From assembly GCA_000317655.1 (NCBI GenBank), contig CP003940.1, positions 1,612,001 to 1,676,000 on the forward strand: a stretch of DNA of 64,000 nucleotides. The letters are read 5' to 3'. This document shows, one piece after another, positions 35,522-43,893 of this stretch (positions are counted from its first letter, which is position 1; every line of letters starts with the position of its first letter). Below the pieces are notes generated by a model. The model saw nothing but the letters and a program-made list of their open reading frames with translations, was not told the DNA's origin and did not search any database. A program made the translations under genes and the position numbers. The DNA is from Cyanobacterium stanieri PCC 7202 (GTDB taxonomy: Bacteria; Cyanobacteriota; Cyanobacteriia; Cyanobacteriales; Cyanobacteriaceae).

Positions 35522-35657
35522 AGGTGATTTTTGTTTAATTTTTTATCCGATAACTATAACAGCCTGTTGATTGTGGCTAGTTTTTATCATGTCACAACTT
35601 ATCTATCCCTTTCAAGATGTGGTTTACCGTATCAGGTTTACTCCTTTTCCATCCAAC

Positions 35658-36404
35658 TTAATTACTTCTGCCTGGAGGAATAAAACGAATTTCCATCCGT
35701 CTTCTAGTGTCATCCTGACTACGATTAACAGGTGCGAAACCCCCCGATGGTAAATATAACTGAGCACCTGAATATGCCCTAAATTGAATATCTCTAAATT
35801 CTCCTTGTCGCTGTAACTCTTGCACTACAGCTAACGCCCTCATCAAAGCTAAATCAGCATTGGAACCAGCGGTTAACTGTGTAACACTGATTTGATTTTT
35901 GGCTACTCGTTCAAGATTTTGATCTAAATTACCTGTAACATTACCCAAAACTTGTCCATCAGTATGTCCTATGACTTGGATAAAATCAATATCCTGTGAG
36001 TTAATAATTTGATTAATTTGTGGAGTAACAGTATTAGTAATATGGTTTCTTAATTCTGAGGTTAATTCGGCACTACCCGAGGGAAACTGAAAATTACCCG
36101 ATTTTTCGTCAATAATGATAGGGGAAGCATTATAAAGATTGTCGTTTTGCGCCCTTAATTCTCGATTTAGACTTGCTAACTGTTGATTTTCTTCTCTGAG
36201 ATTATTTAATTCTTCTAGCAATTTTGACATATTTTCCGTTCTGCTAATAAGTTCCAAATTTTCTTTATTGCCCTGCCATATTTGCATGGTTGCCAGAATG
36301 AGGAAAAAACTAAGGATCATAAAAGCATTAGACATTAAATCTGTAAATGCGTTAGTGATGTTTAAATCCTCTGTTTCATCTTGATTTCTTCTTTTTCTAT
36401 ACAT
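35658..36404 (-). CDS. MotB/ZorB-like stator protein with OmpA peptidoglycan-binding domain
   Basis: A 248-residue protein with a short cytoplasmic N-terminus, one membrane helix (about 23-43), a periplasmic coiled coil (about 50-95) and a C-terminal OmpA/MotB domain. Asp22 in AFTDLMSNAFMI, at the start of the helix, is placed like the ion-carrying Asp of MotB and ZorB. The OmpA domain keeps the peptidoglycan signature IGHTDG (145-150), LALMRALAVV and the terminal RRRMEIRF (234-241). It follows the MotA/TolQ-like gene by eight bases and is last of four genes, so the two should form one ion-driven complex anchored to the cell wall. What it drives is unknown. Confidence 0.85.
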   Translation of the reverse strand: MYRKRRNQDETEDLNITNAFTDLMSNAFMILSFFLILATMQIWQGNKENLELISRTENMSKLLEELNNLREENQQLASLNRELRAQNDNLYNASPIIIDEKSGNFQFPSGSAELTSELRNHITNTVTPQINQIINSQDIDFIQVIGHTDGQVLGNVTGNLDQNLERVAKNQISVTQLTAGSNADLALMRALAVVQELQRQGEFRDIQFRAYSGAQLYLPSGGFAPVNRSQDDTRRRMEIRFIPPGRSN

Positions 36405-36412
36405 AATTATTC

Positions 36413-38056
36413 TTAAGATCTAAATTTAACTTTTGGGGCTAATAAACGAAAAGAAATGCTTTTTTCTTCTAAGGTATTAAAAGTTTTTAGCTCTTCTCTT
36501 ATATCCCTTAAAATTTCGGTAAATAGGGCTAACTTATAGTTAATTTCTTGGATATTTTCTAAGTTACTGCTTGATATTTCATTATTACTACTAGATGGAT
36601 AATGATTTAAAATTTCTTTGTTTTTGACTTGCCAAGAGTCAAGATAAGATTCTAGTTTTCTAATTTCTTGAGTAATTTTTTGATCTAGTTGTAAAAACTG
36701 AGCTAAATTATCATTTAAACTACTAATATCTGATAAGGATTCAGGTAATTTATTAATAGTATTATCTATCAAATTTATTTTAGTTTCTAACAATTGGTTT
36801 AATTCTATAAATTGTTCTTTACTACTTACTAAAGTATCAGTTATTTCCCTTAATATGATGCTTAAATTTTCATCTTTTATACCATCAGTTAAGTTAGTAA
36901 ATCCTGTCAAAGTTTTACCCAGTTGCTCAACCAATATTCCTAATTCTAAATAAATATTTTCATTCAGGTTTTGTGTTAATTTATTTTGGAATACAAATTC
37001 TTGAACATTATCAGCAATATTTATCGTGGATTGATTAAACTTCTCTTGTACATTGAGCAAACTATGGGTTAAATCTCCTAAATTATCAGCAAATTTACTG
37101 TTTTCAATTTTTATGGCACTATCTTGAATTTTTGTCGCACTCAATTCTAATGCGTTAATACTATCCGTAAATTTTTGTAATAAAGTATCCATTTTATCTG
37201 TGGATTCTTTAAAAATATTTGCTCCGTTATTAAGGGTACTAGATGAACCTAATAAGTTTTGATAAACATCTACACTTAATTCATGACTTCTTTTATTTTG
37301 TTCTATTAGTTGATCTGTTGCTTGTTTAAATGTTCTTTCTAAAACTTGTCCCACATTTTCATGAAATCGAAGTAAAAAATCTTCCTGCTGTTTAACCATT
37401 CTATTCACGGCTTTATCAAGTCTAGTTTCTCCTTGTTGACTTAGTTGATGGTGATTATCAAAATAATTTTCTAAGTTATTTATCAAAGCTCTTTTTTCGA
37501 GACTTACATTCCAAAAAATATTAACTACTATCAATAATGAACTAAAAAATAAAGCAGATAAACTACTAACAAAAGCAATACTCATGCTTTCTAAGGGTAT
37601 CTGTAGTTGATCAAGAAGATTATTTATATCTTGACCAGAATTACCACCAATAACATCGTAAATGCTACCTAAATTAAGGGTAATGCCAATAAAAGTACCC
37701 AATAAACCAAAACCTAGCAGTAAATTGGGTAAAACTTTTGTTATGTATTCTGCTTGATCACAACGTACTTTTTTGCCTAAAAAGATAAAGGTTTGCTCAT
37801 AAAATAAACCATCAATTAAAGCAATGGTATTAACATTTTCTAATTTGTTATTGAGTCGTTCAAACTTTTCTCTTAAGTGTTTATTAAAGGGAGTTTCTTT
37901 TTCCATTCTGATGGTTGCATATAAATCATTAGTATTTTTTTTGAGATTAACTAAATGATTGTGTAGTTTAATGCGTAAACCAAGGGTTAGTATGGCTGGA
38001 ATAATAATGAAAATAACTATACTTACCCATAAATATAGTGGTAATGTTTGTAACAT
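36413..38056 (-). CDS. MotA/TolQ/ExbB-type channel protein with long coiled-coil tail (ZorA-like)
   Basis: A 547-residue protein. An N-terminal helix (about 7-28) and two later helices (about 108-130 and 158-182) flank the family core; GLLGTFIGITLNL (117-129) is the MotA/TolQ/ExbB signature in the helix that lines the channel. After the last helix comes a cytoplasmic region of about 360 residues, almost entirely helical with heptad-like Leu/Ile and Asn/Gln-rich spacing. A tail of that size is absent from ExbB and TolQ and recalls ZorA. Partner is the MotB-like gene eight bases downstream. The tubulin-like GTPase gene is 68 bases upstream. Family assignment is firm, function inferred. Confidence 0.85.
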   Translation of the reverse strand: MLQTLPLYLWVSIVIFIIIPAILTLGLRIKLHNHLVNLKKNTNDLYATIRMEKETPFNKHLREKFERLNNKLENVNTIALIDGLFYEQTFIFLGKKVRCDQAEYITKVLPNLLLGFGLLGTFIGITLNLGSIYDVIGGNSGQDINNLLDQLQIPLESMSIAFVSSLSALFFSSLLIVVNIFWNVSLEKRALINNLENYFDNHHQLSQQGETRLDKAVNRMVKQQEDFLLRFHENVGQVLERTFKQATDQLIEQNKRSHELSVDVYQNLLGSSSTLNNGANIFKESTDKMDTLLQKFTDSINALELSATKIQDSAIKIENSKFADNLGDLTHSLLNVQEKFNQSTINIADNVQEFVFQNKLTQNLNENIYLELGILVEQLGKTLTGFTNLTDGIKDENLSIILREITDTLVSSKEQFIELNQLLETKINLIDNTINKLPESLSDISSLNDNLAQFLQLDQKITQEIRKLESYLDSWQVKNKEILNHYPSSSNNEISSSNLENIQEINYKLALFTEILRDIREELKTFNTLEEKSISFRLLAPKVKFRS

Positions 38057-38124
38057 TGATTATTTGTTTTGAAATAAATATGTAACGATTGTGGTAATGA
38101 TTTTGATTAAGAATATGGTAAAAA

Positions 38125-41100
38125 TTAGGTTGTTTCTACATCAATAATATCCTCATCATTATCATTATTTGTAATGTTACTTGATGAATAATTTATATTT
38201 TCAAAGAATGCTTTAAATTCTTTATAAATTTTAGCTAAAATTCCATCAGATGTAGGGGAAGAATTATCTCCCATTAATAAGTCTTTTTGATTGAAATTAT
38301 CATCATAATCGGTTAATTGATTGACTTTTGCCACAAAAGATTTAAAATTATTTTCGTAAATTTGCCAGAGAGATGGATTATTGCTGATGTCTTCTATTAA
38401 TTTTTCTTTGTTCTGTTTTAAACTTTGATATAGGAAGGGCTTTTGCCAAATTTCTTCCAAGGCTTCTGCCCAAATAGGGCTTAATGATATATCCTGATGA
38501 TGGTTAAAAATATCATCATATTTTTGGATGACAATGGCTGTTTCATCTTGATTTTCTGTAAACATACCGTTATGTTTTGGAACTGAAACGGTTTTGGTAA
38601 TGACTCCGAAGGCTAAGCAAGTATAGAAAACATTTTGTAACTCCCTCATTTCTTTTTCTGGGGGCGGAATTATATCTAAAAAGTTTTTGGTGTAATCATT
38701 ATGTAAATAAAAGGATTTTTTTTGGGCTTCGTATTGTTTTCGTAAATCTTCGATACCGTTAATAATTCTGAGGGGAAAACCACCTATTTCTTGGAGGAAA
38801 ATAATTTCATTTTTGGACTGAATTGATAATAGTTTATCTGCACTGACACCTATTTTATCTAGTAATATATTTTTGAAATTTTGATTTTCTGGTTCGTCTG
38901 TTTGTCTAAAAGCTATGGTTTCTTGGGTTAGGGGTGCTGTGGGAAAATTAACGAGATAAGGATCATTTATATTGAGAGGTAATAACCATTCTGCTTCTTG
39001 GCGTATTTGTTGTAATCTTGTTTGTGCGTTCGTGAAAGGATATTTATCCATAAATCGACTGACAACAGATTTTGTTAAGTCAATGGTTTTTGAGCTAAAT
39101 GTAATTTCTACGGTGGAGGTAATAACTTGATTTAATTCTTCTTTACTGATAATTCTTTCGCTGGTGAAAAAGTGCGATATGGATTGAGAAATAATGGTTT
39201 TTTGGGTTATGGATTTGGTGGTTTCTATGAGTAGGTTATATTTTTCTAGTTCGGGTAATAAAAACTGATAATAGTAATGGTTATCTTCAATACTGAAAAT
39301 GGCTTCTCCGTTAATTTCTTGGGAGTTAATTTGGGTTAGTTGTTCTTCTCTTCTTCGATAGAAACTATTTAAGTCATCTAGGAGGTTGTAAAAGCTATTG
39401 ATTTTGGCTCTTAAATCTTGTACTTGTCGCAGAAGATGGTTAACAATGTTAATACTTTCGTCTAGTAATGCGAGGTCAAAGTTACGAATAATTAGATTAT
39501 AAAGACGGAGAATTTCCTGACGAGATTCATCTTTAAATTTCTCCATTTTCGCTTTGTTAGAAAGAAATCCTAATCCTAAACAGCCCATTTTTTCTGTTTC
39601 GATGGATTGTAAATCTTCGACGATACTTTTGGTTTCTTTTTCTATTATTTCTAAGGTAATTATGAATTGAGAGTTTTGTTTTTCTTCTTGTAATTCTCTG
39701 AGACACTCGTTTAATTTTGTTACCATGGCTTCTAACCATGAACGAGCATTTTCGATGGAAAAGTTGTTATTAAATGGATCCAATAATTCTTCTAGGTGAG
39801 AATTAATATCTGATTTAAGTTGTCTTGTGATACCTACACTATTTTCTTTGATGATGGTTAACCATTTTCCTCTAATCTTTTCGGTTTCTCCTGTTTGAAT
39901 GTCTTTAAATTCTCCTTTGACTTCTTGCCATAGTTTACTGGTAAATTGTTGTCTTTCCTCTGGGGTGCGATATGATTCGACTTCATTCATCAGTCGATTT
40001 TGCCATCTTTTAACTTTTTGCTTGAAGGTTTGGTTATTTTCGAGGCTAATTTCTTCTAGTTTGGTGGAGAAAATTTGATAGTCTTGTTCGTTTCTGGTTT
40101 TCCATTGGAGTAAAAATGTTTTAAGTAAGTCTTCGGCGTAAATTACTTTTTCTTCGCCTCTTAACCAAAAGGAAATTACGTTTTGTCTTAATTTATTGAG
40201 GCAGTTAGCAATAATTAAGTCTCGGGGAAAATATATTTTGGCTAAACCAAAGGTAATATATCTTTGAACGTTGGGGCGAGAGTGGCGATCGCACAGTTCC
40301 ATTGCTTGACGATTATTGTCTCTGATGCCTTTAAATCTGTTACTGATGGAGTTTTCTTCGGCAAATTCAGCAAAGATACGATGGGCAATGAGATAGGATA
40401 AATTTTCTTTGTTGGGTATTTTGTGACCGTTAAAAGTGCGATCGCCCATAAGATAACAAAAATCAAAAGGGGAACGAGGTTCATTGACGGAAAAAATCCC
40501 TTGAGCGTCATAATCACACTTAAATCTATTTTTTTCAGAACTATAATAATCTAATTCCTTGAGCGCCGCATAGGTATTGGCTTGACAGATATTATTATTA
40601 CCATATAATTCAGGGGCGATGACAAAATAACCAATGAAATCTGTTCCTGCTTGATGCTGATACATTCTTCTTAGGGTATAAGCCATATCAATAAACGTAC
40701 CGCTTCCCGTTCCACCGCAAAGAGAACCGACTACAATGATATTTAACCCTTGCTCTACGGCAATATTTTTTCTCATCAAAGTTTCTGCATGTCCGTTGGT
40801 GCGGTTGTCAGCGTTTTCAATGCTTTGTCGAATGTCTTTATGATTATGAAAAAATCCTAATCGCCCAATAGAACGAACTGCACCAGCTCCATTTTCGATA
40901 GATTGTAAATTTTTCAACAGTTTCGGGTGAAACCATTGAGCAATATGATCATAAGGGGATGATTCTTGATTGTTGTGCGTCAGATGTTGACTTAATTGGT
41001 TGATGTCCTGCTTATTCATTGTCGCCGTAACCACTTCAGAGGGTTTTAACAACAGATTTTCTCCCCTATGGCTATCACCGCTTTTTAACCCGGTGGTTGT

Positions 41101-41265
41101 ATGTTCGTATTGATTAGTGTCAATGTGGAGAAAGGTAACAATGGGTAAATTTTCTAGTTTCTCGTGGCGATCAACGATTAAACGTCTAATTTGCATTAAA
41201 ATTTCTTTTCCCGTACCACCCAAACCGATACAGATAGTACGTTTTATGTTTTGAATTTCTGGCAT
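38125..41265 (-). CDS. Large tubulin-like GTPase
   Basis: A 1046-residue protein of the bacterial tubulin-like (Tubulin_2) type. The N-terminal third has a FtsZ/tubulin GTP-binding fold: IGLGGTGKE (13-21) at the first phosphate loop and the signature CGGTGSGTFIDMAY (183-196), equivalent to GGGTGSG of tubulin and FtsZ. GAGAVRSIGRLGF (126-138) is another probable nucleotide-side loop. Residues about 370-800 are long charged helices, then mixed alpha/beta sequence and a disordered acidic tail ending DDEDIIDVETT. No membrane segment is seen, so it is cytoplasmic. It is encoded between a vWA membrane protein and an ion-driven motor pair. Whether it polymerises is unknown. Confidence 0.83.
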   Translation of the reverse strand: MPEIQNIKRTICIGLGGTGKEILMQIRRLIVDRHEKLENLPIVTFLHIDTNQYEHTTTGLKSGDSHRGENLLLKPSEVVTATMNKQDINQLSQHLTHNNQESSPYDHIAQWFHPKLLKNLQSIENGAGAVRSIGRLGFFHNHKDIRQSIENADNRTNGHAETLMRKNIAVEQGLNIIVVGSLCGGTGSGTFIDMAYTLRRMYQHQAGTDFIGYFVIAPELYGNNNICQANTYAALKELDYYSSEKNRFKCDYDAQGIFSVNEPRSPFDFCYLMGDRTFNGHKIPNKENLSYLIAHRIFAEFAEENSISNRFKGIRDNNRQAMELCDRHSRPNVQRYITFGLAKIYFPRDLIIANCLNKLRQNVISFWLRGEEKVIYAEDLLKTFLLQWKTRNEQDYQIFSTKLEEISLENNQTFKQKVKRWQNRLMNEVESYRTPEERQQFTSKLWQEVKGEFKDIQTGETEKIRGKWLTIIKENSVGITRQLKSDINSHLEELLDPFNNNFSIENARSWLEAMVTKLNECLRELQEEKQNSQFIITLEIIEKETKSIVEDLQSIETEKMGCLGLGFLSNKAKMEKFKDESRQEILRLYNLIIRNFDLALLDESINIVNHLLRQVQDLRAKINSFYNLLDDLNSFYRRREEQLTQINSQEINGEAIFSIEDNHYYYQFLLPELEKYNLLIETTKSITQKTIISQSISHFFTSERIISKEELNQVITSTVEITFSSKTIDLTKSVVSRFMDKYPFTNAQTRLQQIRQEAEWLLPLNINDPYLVNFPTAPLTQETIAFRQTDEPENQNFKNILLDKIGVSADKLLSIQSKNEIIFLQEIGGFPLRIINGIEDLRKQYEAQKKSFYLHNDYTKNFLDIIPPPEKEMRELQNVFYTCLAFGVITKTVSVPKHNGMFTENQDETAIVIQKYDDIFNHHQDISLSPIWAEALEEIWQKPFLYQSLKQNKEKLIEDISNNPSLWQIYENNFKSFVAKVNQLTDYDDNFNQKDLLMGDNSSPTSDGILAKIYKEFKAFFENINYSSSNITNNDNDEDIIDVETT

Positions 41266-41380
41266 AACAACAAAGAGAGATAAAGCGAATAATTAATGAT
41301 CAGTAACAATCAAACTAACGATTGAGATAAAAATCTAATTTCTTGACTGGGCGATCTGCAATAGTTAAGCTAATTTAATT

Positions 41381-42511
41381 CTAATTACTTATTTTGATAT
41401 TAATACTTAAATCTTGTTTTTCATCAGGAAGATTTAAAAATATTGACTGATTTCGTTTCATGGGCAAAACTATTTTTTCAGTTATTTGTCGATGGCGATA
41501 TTCGAGGGGTAAGCTATGGGCTTGAGGTTGGATGATTAATTGTGTGCCTTTTCTTTTCAAATATCCCCTAATTTCTCCCCCTGCACATTGTATATCTTCT
41601 CCAATGGATAGGGTTTGATTATTTTTGAGGTAAATAATCTGGCTATTATATTCATCATTATCTAATGTAATTTCTAATTTCCAGATATTTTTTACCGCCA
41701 GATAATATTTGGCACCGTAGGTAGTGGTACCTATAACCCCACATAAACCTAACAAAATAATGCTAAAAGGTAGCCATAGCTGATTAAAAAGATAAGGATT
41801 AACTAAACAGGTTTGCCTACCACCCGGTGCTGGGGTACAAAATTCTTGGACTGTGGGGGCAATATCCACCACAGTTAACTGATAGTTGCCGATGGTGCGA
41901 CTGTTAGTGGTGAGGGGAAGATTGTCTAACCAGTTTTGACGATCAATACTTACGGTGGTGGTAGCATCACGATAAGGACTATGGGCGGGGGTTTCTATCC
42001 ACACATCGGAGGTTATACCTGGCTCAGTTTTTAATGGGGCATCAGTTAGCCACACCACTGATTGATGCTTGATGGCTTCTCTTTCACAAAGTCGATTTTG
42101 GTTAACTTGAGCCAGATTTTGATAGATGAAATGTTCTGCTTTTTGTATGTCGGTATTGCTTTCGTTTAAGTCAGCTTGAAGGGGTATTCTGTTTAAGATG
42201 GCTTCGATGCTTTCTTGACGATTACGAACTTTGATGGCTTCGGAAACAGTTAAGGGGTTGTTATCGTTTCCAGGGTTTACTTCAGAGGAAAAAGGTACTA
42301 TATAAACGGTGTCACCTGATTGAAGGCTATCGTCAACAATTTGCCTAAGACGTAATCTCCCTTCGTCGTCTAAACTGACGCTTTCGGTTAAGTCGATGGC
42401 AAAAACTACATCTCTGCCTCGAAACCATGAAACGATTTCTAAGCCTCTTATTTGCCATGGTGTGAGGGTTTCACCGACGGTAATTTGGGAGCAATTATCT
42501 ATTACTGACAT
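41381..42511 (-). CDS. vWA-domain membrane protein
   Basis: A 376-residue protein. The N-terminal vWA domain has a complete metal-ion-dependent adhesion site: DLTES (D40, T42, S44), T120 in SNTDIQKAE and D157 in VVWLTDAP. One membrane helix lies at about 247-266, followed by a basic segment and a beta-rich domain to the C-terminus. Two cysteines (EFCTPAPGGRQTC) stand just before the helix. No signal peptide is visible, yet the positive charge after the helix favours the C-terminus inside, so topology is unresolved. I start at the ATG at 42511; an upstream TTG would translate repeat DNA. It is the first of four genes, with a candidate promoter at 42580. Confidence 0.8.
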   Translation of the reverse strand: MSVIDNCSQITVGETLTPWQIRGLEIVSWFRGRDVVFAIDLTESVSLDDEGRLRLRQIVDDSLQSGDTVYIVPFSSEVNPGNDNNPLTVSEAIKVRNRQESIEAILNRIPLQADLNESNTDIQKAEHFIYQNLAQVNQNRLCEREAIKHQSVVWLTDAPLKTEPGITSDVWIETPAHSPYRDATTTVSIDRQNWLDNLPLTTNSRTIGNYQLTVVDIAPTVQEFCTPAPGGRQTCLVNPYLFNQLWLPFSIILLGLCGVIGTTTYGAKYYLAVKNIWKLEITLDNDEYNSQIIYLKNNQTLSIGEDIQCAGGEIRGYLKRKGTQLIIQPQAHSLPLEYRHRQITEKIVLPMKRNQSIFLNLPDEKQDLSINIKISN

Positions 42512-42579
42512 GGGGAATGGAAAATACGGAATGGGCAATGGTGATAATATTTTGAAATCTCAATTTTTAATGTCATTTC

Positions 42580-42585
42580 ATTATA
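42580..42585 (-). promoter_or_regulatory. Candidate -10 box of the vWA/tubulin/motor operon
   Basis: TATAAT on the minus strand, 69 bases before the vWA ATG and just past the stop of the amidohydrolase gene. There is no good -35 hexamer, so it would be an activator-dependent or type-2 promoter. A GGGCAATGG repeat fragment lies between it and the start codon. Confidence 0.35.
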
Positions 42586-42606
42586 TTCCACCCTCTAAAT
42601 GCTAAT

Positions 42607-43893
42607 TTAATTTACTTCAATAAATGGATCTAATTCTTCATAATCAGGCAGTTGAGCATCTACTATTTTACCATTTCTGATTAAGCTGCGATCGCACTGA
42701 TTTCGTGACAATAGCTCACTAAAATAACGACCTTTAAAAAGGATTAAATCTGCGGTACTTCCTACGCCTATTTTGCCGAGGTGAGGTAATTTGATCATTT
42801 TTGCTGGAGTTTTGGTTACAGAGGTGATCCAGTCGCCATAAGGGGTGTCTAGGTGAGCAATGCGCACGGACTGGGTAAATACTTCTAACATATCATGGTC
42901 GCCAAAACCATAAAAAGGATCTCGACAATTATCACTGGCAAAAGCCACGTCAACCCCCGCCTGTTTCAATTCTTTTACCCTTGTCACCCCACGCCAAAAG
43001 GGGGTAGTGTCTTCCTGTCTATCTTGCAAATAGAGGTTACACATGGGCAAACTAACGATACTTATATTAGCTTCTTTTACTAACTCGATGGTTTTTTTGA
43101 CCACTTCTGGGGGTTGTACTGCTAAACTGCAACAATGCCCACAGATTATGTTACCTTGATAATTCATTTTAATAGCAGTTTCGGCTATTTTTTGTAAGCA
43201 AATGGAATCAATTTCATTATTTTCGTCGGCATGAAAATCTAAGTCTAAATTGCGCTCGATGGCGAGTTGAAATACTTTTTCGATCTGTTGATCTATATCT
43301 TTATTCATATAGGCAACTCCCCCCAAAATACCTTCTTTTTCTGCCATTTTATTGGCTAATCTTGCTCCATCAGGGGTGAGAAAATAATCTAAACTAACGA
43401 GGGATACTGCTTGAATAGTTAGTTTATTTTGCCATTCTTTTTGTAGTTGTTTCCAAATATCGACACTGATAAAATCATCATAACTATAACAGTCTAAATG
43501 GGTTCTAAGGGCGATCGCACCGTGAGCATAACTACATTTTAAACCAAAATTCATCCTCTGATAAATTTCTTCTTCTGTCCAATATTGAGCATCACTTCTC
43601 GCCATTTTTAAAGCCGTTTCAAAATCACCTTTTAAATTAGGAGAACGTTGATAAATATGTCCTTTATCTAAATGAGTATGAATATCCACAAAACAAGGTA
43701 AAACAATACCTTTTTTTAAATCTTTACCCTCAGTTTTATCACTAGCTCGAATAATTTGTTTAATCTTTTCCCCTTCAATTTCAATATCACAAAGCACTAA
43801 ACCTTCTCGTGTTTGTTGCTCAAATTTAACTGTATTATTTTCAATTAAATCTAAAGGAATATGAGCATTTTTTAACCAATATTTATTATTCAT
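42607..43893 (-). CDS. Cytosine deaminase-like amidohydrolase
   Basis: A 428-residue metal-dependent hydrolase of the amidohydrolase superfamily. The metal ligands are visible in order: FVDIHTHLDKGH (HxH), DFHADEN, GHCCSL and the catalytic Asp in FASDNCRDPFYGFGDHD. This pattern matches CodA, which deaminates cytosine to uracil, but related enzymes act on other heterocycles, so the substrate is inferred. The start is the ATG at 43893 (MNNKYWLKNA); the open frame upstream to 43959 is dispersed-repeat DNA. No transporter or pyrimidine gene is adjacent. Confidence 0.85.
   Translation of the reverse strand: MNNKYWLKNAHIPLDLIENNTVKFEQQTREGLVLCDIEIEGEKIKQIIRASDKTEGKDLKKGIVLPCFVDIHTHLDKGHIYQRSPNLKGDFETALKMARSDAQYWTEEEIYQRMNFGLKCSYAHGAIALRTHLDCYSYDDFISVDIWKQLQKEWQNKLTIQAVSLVSLDYFLTPDGARLANKMAEKEGILGGVAYMNKDIDQQIEKVFQLAIERNLDLDFHADENNEIDSICLQKIAETAIKMNYQGNIICGHCCSLAVQPPEVVKKTIELVKEANISIVSLPMCNLYLQDRQEDTTPFWRGVTRVKELKQAGVDVAFASDNCRDPFYGFGDHDMLEVFTQSVRIAHLDTPYGDWITSVTKTPAKMIKLPHLGKIGVGSTADLILFKGRYFSELLSRNQCDRSLIRNGKIVDAQLPDYEELDPFIEVN

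Follow-up and report, generated by a model that had tools for sequence, protein, structure and literature searches.

What could a ZorAB-like motor pair be doing beside a tubulin-like GTPase, and do the genes encoding them belong to a single system? The locus raising this question lies in Cyanobacterium stanieri PCC 7202, whose genome is a single contig of 3.16 Mb, and was analysed within a stretch of 64,000 nt (CP003940.1, bases 1,612,001-1,676,000), referred to below as the window. All four ORFs of the block are present as an earlier note on this DNA had described them: co-directional, on the minus strand, and separated by gaps of 115, 68, and 8 bases. They encode a vWA membrane protein (41381..42511), a Tubulin_2/FtsZl1 GTPase of 1046 aa (38125..41265), a ZorA-like motor subunit of 547 aa (36413..38056), and a ZorB-like motor subunit of 248 aa (35658..36404). 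The first of these genes starts either at TTG 42538 or at ATG 42511, with its stop side at 41381.

The four-gene block is a real unit, as indicated by its recurrent order, the correlated divergence of its proteins, and its recurrence at another position within the genus. Among 386 cyanobacterial genomes, 71 contain a match above the cut-off of the Tubulin_2 family (PF13809), and 61 cyanobacterial tubulin loci, including the window, were examined. The tubulin, ZorA-like, and ZorB-like genes occur together in 33 of them, from 23 genera and eight families; the vWA gene stands in front in 32 of these 33 (window included), and the remaining locus is cut by a contig end. Gene order is fixed in the 32 complete loci, i.e., the window and 31 others, and was found again in loci of named genomes, which is the conserved co-occurrence that the earlier note had proposed to look for. 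The flanks differ among the loci carrying the block; in a few motor loci, small additional ORFs separate the genes or the tubulin gene is split. When the pairwise divergences of the four proteins were compared across 52 loci, they correlated with r of 0.72-0.93, against a permutation maximum of 0.28.

Neither part strictly needs the other, since motors occur without tubulin and tubulin loci occur without a motor. About 27 cyanobacterial tubulin loci (more than a third) lack a recognised motor; one of these (L036) encodes a periplasmic-binding-fold protein and a different, vWA-like protein bearing DxSxS. Conversely, ZorA/ZorB-like pairs of the same family are also found without tubulin or vWA genes, some of them nested among the tubulin-linked pairs. 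In a quick tree of ZorB-like proteins, in which many forks are open, the starred branches require the label 'with tubulin' to have changed at least five times. Stand-alone ZorA/ZorB-like pairs of cyanobacteria were seen at L131-L146; in some of them, ZorA is short, with a total length of 368-384 aa. A further arrangement, found mostly in Nostocales (L164-L186, L205, L207, L219, and L083), has two tandem tubulin-like genes, the second of which is very divergent, after a gene of ~610 aa (vWA in L083).

Comparison within the genus shows that the block moves between genomes as a unit, being present, absent, or differently positioned among species. In the same-genus genome G388, the HtpG and amidohydrolase genes are 98% and 94% identical, respectively, to the genes flanking the block in the window and lie 985 bases apart. 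Window bases at about 35639-42616, comprising the four genes and almost no extra DNA, have no counterpart there, and no block-type tubulin was found in a search across the G388 genome. The difference represents either a loss in G388 or a gain in the lineage of the window. Two genes occupy the G388 interval (L232:2494-3137), one encoding a PIN_3 domain and the other matching the MazE antitoxin weakly; the site next to htpG is possibly variable, with the block in the window and a PIN_3/MazE-like pair in G388. In another genome of the genus, G056, the block occupies a different position, and its DNA is 82% identical over 35658-42502, an interval bounded by the stop of the ZorB gene and the start of the vWA gene, and no further. 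Several relatives carry broken or split tubulin genes. Splitting or shortening of the block's tubulin gene is seen in G109, G187, and G005, which would fit frequent decay of the system.

Judged by its sequence, the motor pair is ZorAB-like. Neither protein has a Pfam match above cut-off, and PF01618 (MotA_ExbB) gives no match in the ZorA-like protein at E<=1, the three PF01618 matches of the genome lying elsewhere. The PADLOC models ZorA1 and ZorB1 match the ZorA-like and ZorB-like proteins at 1.6e-8 and 4e-9, respectively. Profiles built from 20 ZorA-like and 23 ZorB-like homologues matched the PDB chains 8qyd_A (1.4e-9), 8vvn_C (6.7e-9), and 8vvn_B (9.5e-6); 8vvn_C is labelled simply as a MotA/TolQ/ExbB-domain protein, and we take it to be a Zorya entry. 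Among the 60 matches listed for the ZorA profile, the channel-type chains are exclusively those of Zorya. Since many PDB matches of this profile are coiled-coil artefacts, and its score is partly due to coiled coil, the identity of ZorA rests on the channel region shared with 8qyd and 8vvn and on PADLOC; that region of the ZorA-like protein itself aligns to the Zorya chains (PNLL..GLLGTF..., AF..S).

The residues expected to matter most in such a motor are conserved. The ZorA-like protein carries the channel motifs PNLL..GLLGTFIG and AF..S followed by a long, predicted coiled-coil cytoplasmic tail; the GLLGTFIG signature had already been read from the window, and G117, G120, T121, F122, and G124 within it are invariant in 20 homologues. 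The ZorB-like protein has a single TM helix with Asp22 (FTDLMSNAFMIL), invariant in 23 homologues, and an OmpA-like domain with invariant H-T-D and R-R-R residues. The earlier note had described a stator with Asp22 and an OmpA domain: the aspartate holds, while the OmpA domain of the window protein stays below the Pfam cut-off (21 bits vs 27.2) and is matched through the ZorB model. In Zorya, defence requires D24 of ZorB, the counterpart of Asp22 (PMC11890865). Neither of the findings that the earlier note had named as fatal to its reading, namely genes that are rarely neighbours or a standard flagellar-, Tol-, or Exb-type motor, was made; the pair is ZorAB-like rather than Mot/Tol/Exb, in agreement with the matching Zorya models and chains and with the missing PF01618 match.

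The product of 38125..41265 matches Tubulin_2 (PF13809) over residues 11-364 with E=1.1e-109. Its T1 loop GxGGTG and the GGTGSG loop (184-189), the latter correctly recognised beforehand as a tubulin signature, are invariant in 18 homologues. A sequence-profile search of the PDB with the tubulin alignment returned nothing, whereas a fold search of the AlphaFold model (mean pLDDT 80, 18 sequences) succeeded: the nearest folds are CetZ, tubulin, and FtsZ, with Z of 20-23.5 over about 280-350 residues (CetZ, Z 23). The protein comprises a GTP-binding domain (about 1-345), a long helical/coiled-coil segment (about 348-757), and strands (780-930). Since the range of the structural alignment reaches about residue 850-870, the model suggests that the segment of about 348-757 is inserted inside the tubulin fold and that this fold is completed in part by the strands beyond 780, as read from alignment ranges and not from residues. 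In the 2010 study of the FtsZl1 family (PMC2875224), later tubulin elements could not be identified. The window protein and its operon show all the features checked for FtsZl1 membership, i.e., a Tubulin_2 domain, a GGTG(S/T)G loop, a long coiled-coil/helical part after the GTP-binding domain, and a vWA operon partner.

For the vWA protein, neither a Pfam search nor a sequence-profile search of the PDB with its alignment found a match. Its fold is supported by a fold search of the AlphaFold model (pLDDT 84.6), which retrieved the vWA domain of CLCA1 with Z 9.6. The MIDAS residues noted earlier are conserved in the alignment of homologues: D40, T42, and S44 (D40xT42xS44) are invariant, and T120 and D157 occur in at least 90%. 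A single TM helix (about residues 245-263) is followed by a C-terminal domain (276-376) with an FHA fold, to which Rad53, EmbR, and other FHA domains align with Z of about 10 over 91-97 residues in the fold search of the model. The canonical phosphopeptide-binding GR and SxxH of FHA domains are absent from the protein; judged by eye, the alignment shows G-E and no conserved His there. Judged from the charges flanking the TM helix, the FHA-like domain would be inside, while two invariant cysteines would lie outside. Although no signal peptide was found ahead of the vWA domain, the charges and the cysteines suggest that this domain may lie outside the membrane.

The combination is not confined to cyanobacteria. 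A tubulin with a ZorAB-like pair recurs in Deinococcota, Armatimonadota, and Poribacteria. ZorA-like and OmpA/ZorB-like genes come after the tubulin gene at three loci, which belong to a Deinococcus plasmid (L151), an Armatimonadota MAG of the genus Chthonomonas (L153), and a MAG without classification (L155); in two Poribacteria loci (L169 and L199), the motor pair lies upstream of the tubulin with three genes between. At these five loci, the vWA partner either differs or was not recognised. Outside cyanobacteria, tubulins of the family adjoin defence-type genes on Thermus/Meiothermus plasmids and in Deinococcus. On the plasmid of Deinococcus sp. QL22 (L151:343-16530), an AAA ATPase gene (PDC-M26A model, 2e-48) and a PDDEXK_7/DUF2357 gene lie a few kb before the tubulin, ZorA-like, and OmpA/ZorB-like genes. 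The Meiothermus and Thermus plasmids (L097 and L152) carry tubulin-like and vWA genes beside brxL, with DUF1156 and HEPN_Swt1/DUF499 also present in Meiothermus, forming a BREX-like island with a tubulin. The related tubulin there adjoins a vWA protein, as in the block, but these islands lack a ZorAB-like pair. On an Azospirillum plasmid (L096), a tubulin-like gene is close to two caspase-family and several OmpA-family genes. ZorB-like proteins (E about 1e-36 to 1e-41) are also encoded on Rhizobium, Microvirga, and Tistrella plasmids (L094, L095, and L099), where the TM helix reads LTMAE and not FTD; the clusters consist mostly of unannotated genes without tubulin, possibly representing a different motor. 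A phage match (MT836542) is an unverified faecal scaffold and was left out of the evidence.

Part of this arrangement has been described before. Operons of FtsZl1 tubulins with vWA and OmpA-type proteins were reported by Makarova and Koonin in 2010, with the cyanobacterial members forming a clade and a function that was predicted only; the OmpA-type partners were treated as peptidoglycan-binding or porin-like (PMC2875224). The block is therefore not an undescribed system, contrary to the earlier note, which knew of none with this composition; its statement may still hold for the motor, as the main text of that paper mentions neither MotA, ExbB, TolQ, nor a motor. The block shares with the FtsZl1 operons the tubulin family and the vWA and OmpA-type partners, but its OmpA-type protein is ZorB-like and is paired with a ZorA-like subunit, and its four genes include no protein kinase or P-loop GTPase. 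New here are the link to the motor, the mobility of the block, and the recognition of an FHA-like fold in the vWA protein. No paper treating ZorAB and tubulin together was found in a search that left out most subscription journals, and an earlier description is possible; no later functional study of FtsZl1 tubulins was found in the literature searched. With MotAB, TolQR, and ExbBD stators, the motor shares the general A/B subunit plan, but the block lacks a Pfam MotA_ExbB match and their usual partners, and its profile prefers ZorA. With Zorya types I-III, the block shares the features of both motor subunits: a ZorA with channel motifs in a MotA-like core and a long cytoplasmic tail, and a ZorB with a TM Asp and a peptidoglycan-binding domain. 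However, its similarity to the Zorya models is weak (E about 1e-8), and tubulin-like and vWA/FHA-fold proteins are found nearby instead of ZorC/D, ZorE, or ZorF/G.

With a probability of roughly 0.5, the block constitutes one accessory envelope-sensing machine with a Zorya-like front end and a cytoskeletal back end, most likely serving in defence. The ZorA-like and ZorB-like proteins would form a 5:2 rotary motor anchored to peptidoglycan, which a disturbance of the envelope, e.g., phage entry, might open. Ion flow through the pair would then control the tubulin-like GTPase, rotation of the ZorA tail being passed on to it, perhaps via the vWA protein; the GTPase would assemble or change its state at the membrane, limiting damage or infection. 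The more specific form of this proposal, in which the block is a mobile immune module whose ZorAB-type rotary ion motor powers or gates a GTPase of the tubulin superfamily at the inner membrane, is put forward as a tentative possibility. By analogy with Zorya, the mobility and the Zorya-like front end suggest defence. The block contains no nuclease or other obvious killing effector, and we know of no phage or envelope phenotype for it. The proximity to defence islands raised in the earlier note was not borne out in cyanobacteria: a PADLOC scan of 139 flanking proteins (18 loci) against 139 from random stretches of block-carrying genomes gave 33 vs 263 families at E 1e-10, i.e., no enrichment, in a test that is crude because TnpB (transposon) and RT relatives inflate the control count.

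That lack of enrichment would also be expected of a machine for membrane remodelling or vesicle formation, in which the tubulin-like protein bends or organises the inner membrane while the motor pushes against peptidoglycan, without a role in defence. Membrane remodelling was proposed for FtsZl1 in 2010 from gene context (PMC2875224), and the similarity of the tubulin fold to CetZ and the membrane nature of both the vWA protein and the motor agree with it. Nevertheless, the patchy presence, the presence or absence of the exact unit within one genus, and the toxin-antitoxin-like pair at the site fit an accessory conflict module better, and the motor is of the Zorya type; this alternative is somewhat unlikely. 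A response to stress or envelope damage not aimed at phage (osmotic, predator, or competitor attack), with the same coupling of motor to GTPase, would have the same anatomy and would likewise require no tie to defence genes in cyanobacteria; it appears improbable, as the differing flanks reveal no recurring stress-gene context.

The best matches of the motor pair, the ZorA/ZorB models and structures, might instead indicate a true Zorya with effectors elsewhere or diverged. The block is not Zorya because no known Zorya effector gene lies nearby: none of the eight flanking proteins searched matched a model of ZorC, ZorD, ZorE, ZorF, or ZorG at E<=0.001, and neither the tubulin-like nor the vWA protein matched Zorya models. 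As these two are the constant partners, standing where Zorya has its effectors just as the earlier note had suggested, a hidden Zorya is very improbable. Least credible of all is a chance neighbourhood with an ordinary stator; stand-alone ZorAB-like pairs do exist, but the fixed order in 32 complete loci, the correlated divergence, and the recurrent adjacency in unrelated flanks speak against chance, as does the missing PF01618 match against an ordinary stator.

The accessory envelope-sensing machine proposed here is open to experiment. A ZorAB-type motor constantly accompanies the tubulin in a large share of the cyanobacterial loci and is also found with it in three other phyla, which gives this family a testable functional hypothesis and, in Asp22, a residue to mutate whose Zorya counterpart is known to be essential; species of the genus that naturally carry or lack the block can readily be compared. 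Beyond this family, the findings suggest that ZorAB-like motors may serve generally as sensor modules to which different outputs can be coupled.
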